From Amaricoccus macauensis (GTDB taxonomy: Bacteria > Pseudomonadota > Alphaproteobacteria > Rhodobacterales > Rhodobacteraceae): a stretch of 64,000 bases of DNA. A program made the translations under genes and the position numbers. Where the stretch lies: assembly GCF_014201905.1 (NCBI RefSeq), contig NZ_JACHFM010000002.1, forward strand, positions 186,001-250,000, given 5' to 3'. The notes under the pieces were generated by a model. It searched no databases. It had not been told where the DNA came from and worked only from the letters and a program-made list of their open reading frames with translations. Positions within the stretch are counted from its first letter, which is position 1; the number at the start of each line of letters is the position of its first letter. Shown here one piece after another: positions 23,001 to 59,025 of this stretch.

Positions 23001-23074
23001 TGGAGCGGGTGATGGGAATCGAACCCACGTATTCAGCTTGGAAGGCTGCTGCTCTACCATTGAGCTACACCCGC
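23001..23074 (-). tRNA. tRNA-Gly (anticodon UCC)
   Basis: The leftward strand folds into a full cloverleaf. Acceptor GCGGGTG pairs with CACCCGC, the D-loop is in TAGCTCAATGGTAGAGC, the anticodon loop is CTTCCAA with anticodon TCC, and the T-arm is GTGGGTTCGATTCCCAT. The discriminator is U and CCA is encoded (23001-23003). It reads GGA (and by wobble GGG) glycine codons. Confidence 0.97.
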
Positions 23075-54719: not shown

Positions 54720-55958
54720 TCAGCGTTCGTTTCCCCAAAGCTCGACGAGCCGCAGGACCATCCGCGTGGAGGCGGCCATGTCCTGCACGCTGATCCATTC
54801 CCGCGGGCCGTGGATCATCTGCATACCGGTGAAGAGGTTGGGGCAGGGGATGCCCATCTCGGTCAGGCGCGACCCATCCGTCCCGCCGCGGATCGGCTCG
54901 GAGTAGGGCTCGACGCCAACATCCCGGCAGGCCTGTCGCGCCAGCTCGACGGGGCGCATGTCCTTTTCGAGCCAGTAGCGCATGTTGCGGTACTGCGGGG
55001 TGATCGTCACCTCGATCTCGGCACGCGGCTCTGTTGCCGCCACCGCTTCGGCGACCTGCCGCACCAGCGCGCCGTGCGCGGCGAGACCGTCAAGCTCGAA
55101 GTCGCGCAGGATGAAGTGGAGTTCCGCCTCGGCGGCGGAGCCCGTCATCTCGTAGAGATGGATGAAGCCGTCGCGGCCGTCCGTGGTCTCGGGGGTGCGG
55201 GTTGCCTGCGGCAACGTATCGACGATCTTCGCGGCGAGATGCAGCGCGTTGACGAGCTTGCCCCTCGCCCAGCCGGGGTGGATCGAGACGCCGCGGATCG
55301 TCACCACCGCCTTGTCGGCCGAGAAGCTTTCGTAGCAGATTTCGCCCCGGTCGGCGCCGTCGAGCGTATAGCCCACGGCGGCGGCGAGGTCCTTCGGAAG
55401 CTCGGGATGCACGCCCCGGCCGATCTCCTCATCTGGCGTGAAGGCAATCCGCAGCGGCCCCCGGGCGATCGTGGGGTCGGCGAGCAGGTGGCCGGCGACG
55501 GTCATGATGATCGCCACGCCCGCCTTGTCGTCCGCGCCGAGAAGTGTCTTGCCGCTCGCCGTGATGATGTCGTCCCCGACGCGGTCTGCCAGATAGGGGC
55601 ATTCGGTCGGCGAGAGTGTCAGTGCCTGGGCGTCGGCGAAGCCGATCGTCCCGCCGTCGTAGCTGCGGTGCACCACCGGCTTCACCCCGGAGGCGTGGAA
55701 CTGCGGTGCGGTATCCACATGGGCGAGAAGCGCGATGGTCGGCGCGCTCTGCACGGTGCCCGGAAGTGTGGCGATCACCGTCCCATAGTCGGTCAGCCGC
55801 ACGTCCGGCACACCGAGCGTCAGAAGTTCGTCCCGAAGCAGGCGGAGCAGAACGAGTTGGCGCTCGGTGCTGGGTGAGGTGGGCGACGTCTCGTCACTCT
55901 GTGTATCGATCGCCGTATAGCGGAGCAGCCGCTCCTCCAGCTCGCGCTCCATCTCCAT
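54720..55958 (-). CDS. pepT: Peptidase T (tripeptide aminopeptidase)
   Basis: 412-residue M20-family zinc aminopeptidase that releases the N-terminal residue of tripeptides in the cytoplasm. Metal ligands and catalytic residues are visible in LLAHVDTAPQF, LLGADDKAGVAII, FTPDEEIGRG and SIHPGWARGKLVNA; the dimerisation domain is in the middle. AAGGA is eight bases before the ATG at 55958. It stands alone, convergent with rnj. Amino acids released could join those from CstA-type uptake, which is speculation. Confidence 0.94.
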   Translation of the reverse strand: MEMERELEERLLRYTAIDTQSDETSPTSPSTERQLVLLRLLRDELLTLGVPDVRLTDYGTVIATLPGTVQSAPTIALLAHVDTAPQFHASGVKPVVHRSYDGGTIGFADAQALTLSPTECPYLADRVGDDIITASGKTLLGADDKAGVAIIMTVAGHLLADPTIARGPLRIAFTPDEEIGRGVHPELPKDLAAAVGYTLDGADRGEICYESFSADKAVVTIRGVSIHPGWARGKLVNALHLAAKIVDTLPQATRTPETTDGRDGFIHLYEMTGSAAEAELHFILRDFELDGLAAHGALVRQVAEAVAATEPRAEIEVTITPQYRNMRYWLEKDMRPVELARQACRDVGVEPYSEPIRGGTDGSRLTEMGIPCPNLFTGMQMIHGPREWISVQDMAASTRMVLRLVELWGNER

Positions 55959-56621
55959 CTGGTCGATTCCTTTTCAAGGTTCCCCGAGGAGGGAAGCACA
56001 GCCCGGGGCGAGAGGCGATGCCGCACAGAGTAAATGCGTAACATTGAGCTTGACGTATGCGTAGGCCGGGAGCACCGTATCTGAAGGGTTGCCATTGGGC
56101 GACTCGGGATTAGAGAAACGCCTTCGGGGAATTTCGACCCGTTAGCTTATCGCAGTGAGTTGTTGCAGGTTTGTCTGACGTATACGAGTGCGTCTACTGT
56201 GCGAATACCGATCTGGTAGAGATGTAGTTCAAGTGAGGATCGTCCCGACGCCGACATGGTGGCGCCGGGCTCCCGTCGAAGGTCTGTTCCGATGGCCAGA
56301 GAGTCGACACCAACACCGTCATGCATCAATCAGCGGCAGCAGAACCGGCGCGTGCGAATGGCGCGACGACGGGAACCCTGTCGCGATCAGGATCAGGGAC
56401 TGGCAAGACCCGGTGCATTGGTCCGGTTGACCGAGCGAATGCCCGGGGCCCGCGCTCGATCGCTCCGACGAGGGAGATCCTGGAACGATGACGCTAGTGA
56501 GCCGGGACGTTCAGGTCACCGTCACCGTGGAGGAGGCGCTGCCGGTTCCGTCAAAACGGCGGACGCCGCGCGTGGCTGCGGCGTCCATTGCAATCGCGAT
56601 TGTTCAGTGCCCGATCAGCGC

Positions 56622-56680
56622 GGCCAGATCAGTTTGCCGTCTGATCGAGCCAGTCTGATCGAGGAGGTCTGATCTGGCCG
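56622..56680. repeat. 14-bp tandem repeat GTCTGATC flanked by an inverted repeat
   Basis: GTCTGATC occurs at 56639, 56653 and 56667, an exact 14-bp spacing; the first two units share GTCTGATCGAG. GGCCAGATCAG (56622-56632) and CTGATCTGGCC (56669-56679) form a perfect 11-bp inverted repeat that brackets the array. It lies just beyond the 3' end of the DEAD-box gene. Confidence 0.6.
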
Positions 56681-56693
56681 GAACTCCGGCCAG
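56674..56693 (-). terminator. Hairpin just after the DEAD-box gene stop
   Basis: CTGGCCGG and CCGGCCAG (8 bp, loop of 4) begin four bases after the stop codon in the direction of transcription and are followed by ATCAGACC, not a T-run. A 3'-end structure is likely; termination efficiency is unknown. Confidence 0.45.
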
Positions 56694-56697
56694 AGAG

Positions 56698-59025
56698 TCA
56701 GGCCGCTGGTGCTTCGGCCACCGCCGCCTTGGCCCGGGATCGCCGCGGGGCGCGCTTCTTCGGAGCCGGGGTGGCCTCCTCGGAGGATGCCGGGGTGGCA
56801 TCCCCGGCAACGCCAGCCGCGCTGGCTTCGGTGGGAGGCGCTTCCGCGGCAGCATTCGGTCCGGTGGGCTCTGGCTCGGCTGTGGGGACGCCGACCGGAG
56901 CTTCGGTCGGGGCATCGGCAGCCCCAGCCTCGACGTCCTGGGGGGGCGTCGTCACCGGACCCGCCGACTCGGCCTCCGGCTTCTTCACCGTTCGCCGCTT
57001 CGTTGCCGGCCGCTTCGCTGCCGGTTTCCTCGCAGCGGGCTTCTTCGCTGCCGCCACCGGCGCCTCCGCCGCCGCATCCGTCGCCACCGGCACTTCGGCC
57101 ACCGCTGGTGCGTCCGCCGCGACCGGCGCGTCTGCCGCCACCGACACTTCGGTCGTCTCTGGCGCGTCCGCCGTGACTGGCGCCTCTTCCGCCACCGGCA
57201 CTTCGGCCACCGCTGGCGCTTCCGCCGCCACCGGCACTTCGGTCGTCTCTGGCGCTTCCGCCGCGACCGGCGCATCTGCCGCCACCGGCACTTCGGTCGT
57301 CGCTGGCGCTTCCGCCGGGACTGGCGCGTCTGCCGCGACCGGCGCATCTGCCGCCACTGGCGCTTCCGCCGCAACCGGCACTTCGGTCGTCACCGGCGTT
57401 TCTGCGGCAACCGGGGCGTCGGCCGTCACCGGGGCCTTGGAGGCGACCGACGATTCGGCCGTGGCCGGGTCGGTGGTCTCGATCGCATCGTCCGAGTCCT
57501 GGCCGTCGTAGTCCGCGGCGAGCGATCCAACGCGCAAATCACGCATCAGGAACGCCGGAACGTGATCGCCCATGCCAACGACGTTGGACTCCGAGCGCGA
57601 CGGGCGGCCACGGCGCGGCTCGGCCGTCCGTGATTGCGGTTCGCGGGAATACACCTCGCGGACCATGCTCTCGCGAGGACGGGCCTCCTCTGCGGTGGCC
57701 TCGACCGGTGTCCTGGTGTCGGCTTCCGGTCGCATCCGGCGCTCACGACGGCGCTCGCCTCGGTCGGCACCGCGATCACGCTCGGTCCGGTCGCGCTCCC
57801 CACGGTCGCTGCCACGCTCATTGGCACCGTTGCGGCGGCGCTCGGCGCTCGGACGGTCAGGAAGAACCTCCTCGGAACCGAGCGGGCTCGGCATCACCTG
57901 GACGGCCTTCTTCACCAGCTCCTCGATCTTCACGAGGTATTTCTCGTCTGCCGGCAGGCAGAGCGTGAAGGATTTGCCGGAGCGCCCGGCGCGGCCGGTG
58001 CGGCCGATGCGGTGGACATAGTCCTCCGAATGGATCGGCACGTCGAAGTTGAAGACGTGGCTCACGTTCGGAATATCGAGGCCGCGTGCCGCCACGTCGG
58101 ACGCGATGAGCAGCTTCAGGTCGCCATCACGGAACCGGCTGAGGATCGCCATGCGGAGCTTCTGGTCAAGATCGCCGTGCAGCGCCTCGGCGTCGAAACC
58201 GTGTCGCTTCAGCGACTTCGCGACCACGTCAACGTCCCGCTTGCGGTTGCAGAAGACGATGCCGTTGGTGAGCGCGTCGCCCTCGCTGCGCACGAGCCGC
58301 CGCAGCACCTCGCGCTTCTCGCGGTCGGCGGTGTCCTTGCGCTTCGGCGCGTGCTTCACCACCCACTGCTCGATCGTCTCGGAGGTCGTCGCCTGACGTG
58401 CGACCTCGACCCGGATCGGGTTATGCAGGAACGTGTCGGTGATGCGGGTGATTTCCGGCGCCATCGTCGCCGAGAAGAACAGCGTCTGGCGGGTGAATGG
58501 CACCAGCTTGAAGATGCGCTCGATGTCGGGAATGAAGCCCATGTCGAGCATCCGGTCGGCCTCGTCGACCACCATGATCTGCACGCCGGTCAGCATCAGC
58601 TTGCCGCGCTCGAAATGGTCGAGCAGCCGCCCCGGAGTGGCGATCAGCACGTCGACGCCGCGGTCGATGAGCTTGTCCTGGTCCTTGAAGCTGACACCAC
58701 CGATCAGGAGCGCCATGGAAAGCTTGAGATGCTTTGAATATTTCTCGAACTGTTCCGCCACCTGCGCGGCGAGTTCGCGCGTCGGCGCGAGCACGAGGCT
58801 CCGCGGCATCCGGGCGCGGGCGCGGCCCTTGGAGAGGGCACAGAGCATCGGCAGCACGAACGACGCGGTCTTGCCGGTACCGGTCTGGGCGATGCCGAGC
58901 ACATCGCGCCCCTCGAGGGCGTGCGGGATCGCCTGGACCTGGATCGGAGTCGGCGTGGCGTAGCCGGCTTCGGTGACGGCCTGAAGGACCCGCGGGTCCA
59001 GCGAGAGGTCGGAAAACTGGGTCAT
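56698..59025 (-). CDS. DEAD-box ATP-dependent RNA helicase with long repetitive basic tail (RhlE-like)
   Basis: 775 residues. The helicase core (1 to about 375) has the Q motif region TPTPIQVQAIPHAL, AQTGTGKT (46-53), PTRELAAQV, VVDEADRMLDMGF, SAT, ARGLDIPNVSHV and HRIGRTGRAGR, closest to RhlE. A charged Arg/Glu/Asp region follows (about 400-450). Residues 530-649 are some 20 copies of a six-residue repeat such as DAPVAA and EVPVTT; then comes a Lys/Ala/Pro stretch (AAKKPAARKPAAKRPATK) like histone-H1 tails, and a basic end. Such enzymes remodel RNA in cold adaptation and ribosome assembly. A good promoter and an 85-base structured leader precede it. Confidence 0.9.
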   Translation of the reverse strand: MTQFSDLSLDPRVLQAVTEAGYATPTPIQVQAIPHALEGRDVLGIAQTGTGKTASFVLPMLCALSKGRARARMPRSLVLAPTRELAAQVAEQFEKYSKHLKLSMALLIGGVSFKDQDKLIDRGVDVLIATPGRLLDHFERGKLMLTGVQIMVVDEADRMLDMGFIPDIERIFKLVPFTRQTLFFSATMAPEITRITDTFLHNPIRVEVARQATTSETIEQWVVKHAPKRKDTADREKREVLRRLVRSEGDALTNGIVFCNRKRDVDVVAKSLKRHGFDAEALHGDLDQKLRMAILSRFRDGDLKLLIASDVAARGLDIPNVSHVFNFDVPIHSEDYVHRIGRTGRAGRSGKSFTLCLPADEKYLVKIEELVKKAVQVMPSPLGSEEVLPDRPSAERRRNGANERGSDRGERDRTERDRGADRGERRRERRMRPEADTRTPVEATAEEARPRESMVREVYSREPQSRTAEPRRGRPSRSESNVVGMGDHVPAFLMRDLRVGSLAADYDGQDSDDAIETTDPATAESSVASKAPVTADAPVAAETPVTTEVPVAAEAPVAADAPVAADAPVPAEAPATTEVPVAADAPVAAEAPETTEVPVAAEAPAVAEVPVAEEAPVTADAPETTEVSVAADAPVAADAPAVAEVPVATDAAAEAPVAAAKKPAARKPAAKRPATKRRTVKKPEAESAGPVTTPPQDVEAGAADAPTEAPVGVPTAEPEPTGPNAAAEAPPTEASAAGVAGDATPASSEEATPAPKKRAPRRSRAKAAVAEAPAA
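57079..57438 (-). repeat. 18-bp coding repeats in the DEAD-box gene
   Basis: About 20 degenerate tandem units of 18 bp encode six-residue units of the type (E/D)-A/V-P-V-A/T-A/T. Copies differ at synonymous and non-synonymous sites, so they are not freshly expanded, but slippage is expected to change the copy number between strains. The product would be a flexible, acidic, proline-rich tether. Confidence 0.8.

Follow-up and report, generated by a model that had tools for sequence, protein, structure and literature searches.

In a window of 64,000 nucleotides from Amaricoccus macauensis (the whole stretch of DNA analyzed here), the 739 bases separating pepT from a DEAD-box RNA helicase gene are probably an ordinary spacer. 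Its right end (ca. 56610 to 56694) would be the 3' trailer of the helicase mRNA, with two stable predicted hairpins and a short array that probably arose by duplication, while the other ca. 650 bases presumably hold the leader and the promoter of pepT. The gap contains no recognizable gene or known RNA, carries repeats and a predicted fold, and is longer than the same junction in two relatives. Both flanking genes are on the minus strand, with the helicase stop codon at 56698-56700 and the pepT start at 55958 (Table 1). The helicase matched 38 NCBIfam models, of which the 25 listed were all under their curated cut-offs. Its C-terminal tail is long, repetitive, and rich in A, P, V, and E; the tail is coded by repeats with periods of 36, 54, 90, and 144 bp (positions 57000-57430), and the length of the predicted protein varies among relatives.

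TABLE 1 Features of the pepT-helicase interval (positions are those of the window)
Feature	Position	Strand	Remarks
pepT, peptidase T (tripeptide aminopeptidase)	54720..55958	-	NCBIfam NF003976 and TIGR01882 above cut-off
Gap without recognizable gene	55959..56697	.	739 bases, between pepT and helicase
AAGGA, Shine-Dalgarno-like	55968..55972	-	9 nt before the pepT ATG; read from the sequence
Second, longer predicted hairpin	56610..56663	-	Built of inverted copies of the repeat unit
Inverted repeat, exact 12-bp arms	56621-56632 (left), 56669-56680 (right)	+ (left arm)	
Three GTCTGATC units, 14-bp spacing	56639..56680	+	Starts at 56639, 56653, and 56667
First predicted hairpin, helicase 3' trailer	56673..56694	-	9-bp stem, 3 nt past the stop, no U-tract
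DEAD-box RNA helicase	56698..59025	-	Pfam DEAD and Helicase_C

The initial annotation had described the gap as 739 bases without a gene, and both its limits and its noncoding character hold. The best coding-like segment reached 9.1 bits, compared to 8.3 ± 1.6 (maximum, 13.7) in 200 shuffles and to a 5th percentile of 76 bits (minimum, 20.7) in 206 coding pieces of the same length. No Pfam family was found in the five gap open reading frames, and neither Pfam nor NCBIfam recognized a family in the six-frame translations, whose single PHROG match had an E value of 0.75; the earlier suggestion of a decayed gene thus found no support in any frame. At gathering scores, Rfam 15 detected only a tRNA (23004-23074) in the whole window and nothing in the gap, and the region from 55900 to 56800 gave no match at E values up to 1. 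Searches of phage and plasmid libraries with the gap were negative, as was the search for a second copy in its own genome (40 of 47 candidates scored). Homology searching, proposed at the outset as a way of exposing a known gene or RNA, detected none in the gap. Matches of 31 to 45 bases in 9 of 393 other genomes of the family (two candidates scored per genome) are taken as chance similarities. A 33-bp match to a DUF6206 gene was dropped as chance because it was merely the best of nine similar short matches over 394 genomes.

The composition of the gap had been considered unlike that of its surroundings. This stands with regard to the neighboring genes, but the gap is just mildly unlike other spacers, because its GC content is 0.608 (minimum of 0.54 at 56000-56249) versus 0.643 for intergenic DNA in the genome sample (464 kb; 0.677 overall). 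What argues against a plain spacer is the length, since 739 bp is long for one: the gap was the 12th longest of 329 in 464 kb, as delimited by our own crude gene caller, by which some of the longer gaps may contain missed genes, and 12 of 281 gaps in another 400-kb sample were at least 700 bp. In favor of a spacer, pepT has its own Shine-Dalgarno-like AAGGA. The best pepT promoter candidate in the 342 bases scanned scored 9 of 12, a value reached by 16 of 100 shuffles; a stricter scan of 55800-56900 returned no promoter, and no FNR-type site for pepT was found with up to 2 mismatches.

The three units with 14-bp spacing reported at the right end of the gap are present, with the sequence GTCTGATC and no further copy in the window on either strand. 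The inverted repeat around them was confirmed as well, except that its exact arms are 12 bp instead of 11, and an inverted CTGATC is found at both 56613 and 56627, in the same 14-bp register as the units. Chance can be excluded for the equally spaced triple 8-mer, because none of 200 dinucleotide shuffles of the gap held any 8-mer three times at an equal spacing of 8 to 30; an 11-bp inverted repeat was present in 6 of 200. The triple is not rare for this genome, because 11 noncoding or mixed entries of this kind were found in 1.264 Mb, the GTCTGATC array included (two of them adjoin in L188, and L164 looks coding by eye). We infer that the array is stem material of the trailer, produced by short tandem and inverted duplication, with replication slippage or template switching as the probable route by which its unit was copied. 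It resembles slippage duplications, others of which occur in the genome, in having few copies, a short period, imperfect repetition, and a position outside genes, but it differs from them in two respects: its 8-mer and period are found again at another place, and two further copies are inverted.

The predicted fold of the trailer had a free energy of -50.7 kcal/mol over 98 nt, with a z score of -6.1 (-5.5 in a repeat estimate over 96 nt), and ranked 2nd (z -7.1, 40 shuffles) among the 244 gene ends from 41 stretches that are followed by a spacer of 98 bases or more. On the minus strand, the lowest z score in the rest of the gap was -2.7, at 56398-56497. The opposite strand of the trailer stretch likewise folds (z -4.6); therefore, the fold alone cannot tell which strand is transcribed. 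With a stable, GC-rich predicted hairpin 3 nt past the stop, the trailer resembles an intrinsic (Rho-independent) terminator or the 3'-end hairpin of an mRNA. It differs from an intrinsic terminator in its two consecutive hairpins, in a stem made of the 14-bp repeat, and in lacking a U-run directly past the stem, neither strand having a run of T next to the hairpins; a terminator scan of 55800-56900 gave 0 terminator-like sites. This lack of a U-tract speaks against a trailer and is unlike the T-rich helicase ends of two genus genomes, G008 and G009, in which we observed by eye a T-rich bidirectional hairpin between the helicase and RNase J. The most likely role of the hairpins would be to mark the transcript's 3' end, to protect it, or to assist in ending transcription.

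The count of similar arrays elsewhere in the genome, advised in the initial annotation, yielded one other exact case: two GTCTGATC at 14-bp spacing matched exactly at just one other place, C2:355271-355306, which also holds three units. The first of these contains the stop codon of a predicted 265-amino-acid gene, and inverted repeats able to form a hairpin (by eye) lie downstream. The three tandem 14-bp units with GTCTGATC at this place (L134:5268-5310, G000:C2:355267-355309) present TGA in all three frames. With two mismatches allowed, two more places appeared in the genome and none in the backward control; one of them, C2:1096707, also starts at a gene's stop codon. Among 24 other genomes searched with up to one mismatch, there was a single further match, in G011. 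By a hand estimate, the exact coincidence of the second array has a chance of ca. 1 in 100 even if slippage makes arrays, and random slippage is a poor explanation for finding an identical 8-mer, identically spaced, at another gene end.

Other repeats were recorded alongside. CCGGTCTGATC occurs 10 times in the genome, and several of these copies fall within sequence that is predicted or appears to be coding. This genome contains 11 occurrences of the pattern GTCTGA-N(4-14)-GTCTGA, distributed over 9 places (backward control, 3), and 10 other genus genomes together contain 14 (backward control, 2). At 12 of these 23 places, a predicted gene ends with the first TGA as its stop codon; one downstream repeat is common to two of the 12, both in G003. 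The pairs are reported as an observation, not as a sign of function. Two genes of G003 (L215 and L221) share ca. 50 bases shortly past their stop codons, beginning with GTCTGAAGGCTTCGGCG, possibly a dispersed 3'-end repeat. A separate array with a 61-bp period and a GC-rich palindromic repeat of ca. 29 bases, at L168:3771-4226 (G000:C3:203771-204226), had no Rfam match at the gathering score and is CRISPR-like in appearance.

The distribution of tandem duplications was quantified in 1.264 Mb. Per kb, the 60-base flanks downstream of genes held 0.55 of them and those upstream 0.32, compared to 0.27 for the remaining intergenic DNA and 0.19 within genes. For genes whose end lies 40 bases or more from the next gene, we scored whether the last 7 bases ending at the stop recur within 24 nt, which happened in 8 of 185 cases in sample 1, 1 of 178 in sample 2, and 4 of 182 in sample 3; permuted pairs gave an expectation of 0.3 to 0.5. 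All 1000 permutations stayed below samples 1 and 3, while sample 2 was reached by 265 of 1000; sample 1 was not blind, as two of its stretches had been picked for GTCTGATC-search matches there. G009 gave 2 of 188 versus 0.27 expected, and a control 7-mer located 10 bases past the stop recurred in 6 of 363 (1.31 expected; samples 1 and 2). Under an exact-run criterion (at least 10), there were 5 of 161 and 1 of 159 recurrences at stops (G009, 0 of 159) and 1 to 3, 0 to 3, and 1 to 4 further downstream. Arrays spanning stops numbered 14 among 1165 predicted genes in 1.264 Mb (one of them, L164, appears by eye to be the coding start of the next gene) and 4 among 370 in G009, whereas the 3'-flank density of 0.55 per kb predicts an estimated 18 or so in this genome. 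On these counts, a specificity of tandem duplications for stop codons was rejected. One published study reports no compelling evidence that additional in-frame stops are selected for in bacteria (PMC6764699).

Among 11 genus genomes, pepT was found in 3 and the RNase J gene in 10, and 8 of the 10 other genomes have an orthologue of the helicase (84 to 90% identity). Comparison of the pepT-helicase interval among relatives, another check advised earlier, was informative for length, and conservation of the gap sequence was not seen. G003 and G010, the two other genus genomes with a pepT match, have no gap: the stop of the helicase and the start of pepT overlap there (TGATG), and this genome therefore has 739 more bases at the junction. 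Of the three genus genomes with pepT, just this one has the longer spacer. The helicase converges on RNase J in G005, G007, G008, and G009, at a distance of 23 to 224 bases. In G006 (G006:C1:44868-48693), unlike those four genomes, ca. 3.8 kb lie between the RNase J match and the helicase match, including the C-terminal part of the helicase. None of the 80 fetched loci around pepT relatives had a helicase of this kind adjoining pepT; four had a distant one (ca. 37% identity), located 1.5 kb or more from pepT.

These comparisons bear on the possibility, which we consider less likely, that the gap is what remains, decayed beyond recognition, of an insertion or of a gene that was lost once pepT and the helicase had become neighbors. 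The DNA is absent from the same junction in G003 and G010, pepT was found in just 3 of the 11 genomes, and 382 bases lie between the two copies (at 56294 and 56688) of an exact 12-bp direct repeat, GGCCAGAGAGTC. On the other hand, a deletion in the G003/G010 line would look alike, and a 12-bp repeat can be chance in ca. 1.2 kb. The lack of any family in six frames, apart from the lone PHROG match, and of phage, plasmid, or own-genome matches also weighs against a remnant. The leftover of an insertion suggested at the outset thus has two gapless same-genus genomes in its favor but no element ends or source, the repeat and library searches having given just that internal direct repeat. Such an origin would be compatible with the gap being a spacer in its present state.

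An independent small RNA encoded in the gap is very unlikely. The strongly folding stretch of ca. 90 nt is what might be expected of one, but the strong folding is confined to the helicase-stop end, no promoter exceeds chance, and there is neither an Rfam match nor visible conservation; of the small RNA proposed initially, what is left is a predicted structured 3' trailer. It is likewise very unlikely that the array is a cluster of DNA sites bound by a regulator of pepT or the helicase. Such a cluster would fit the three exact, evenly spaced units, the two inverted CTGATC copies in register, and the second exact three-unit array, but the array lies downstream of the helicase and ca. 700 bp upstream of pepT, its counterpart overlaps another gene's stop codon, nothing points to a regulator, and the 10 other genus genomes have no paired GTCTGATC unit with up to one mismatch. 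Most remote of all is a reading of the GTCTGATC arrays at gene ends as a 3'-end signal peculiar to the lineage, combining repeated out-of-frame stops with a hairpin, which would end translation and stabilize or terminate the transcript.

As the ordinary spacer that we take it to be, the gap would matter little beyond annotation. If the recurring gene-end arrays did act as a signal, they would represent a 3'-end element of a new type.
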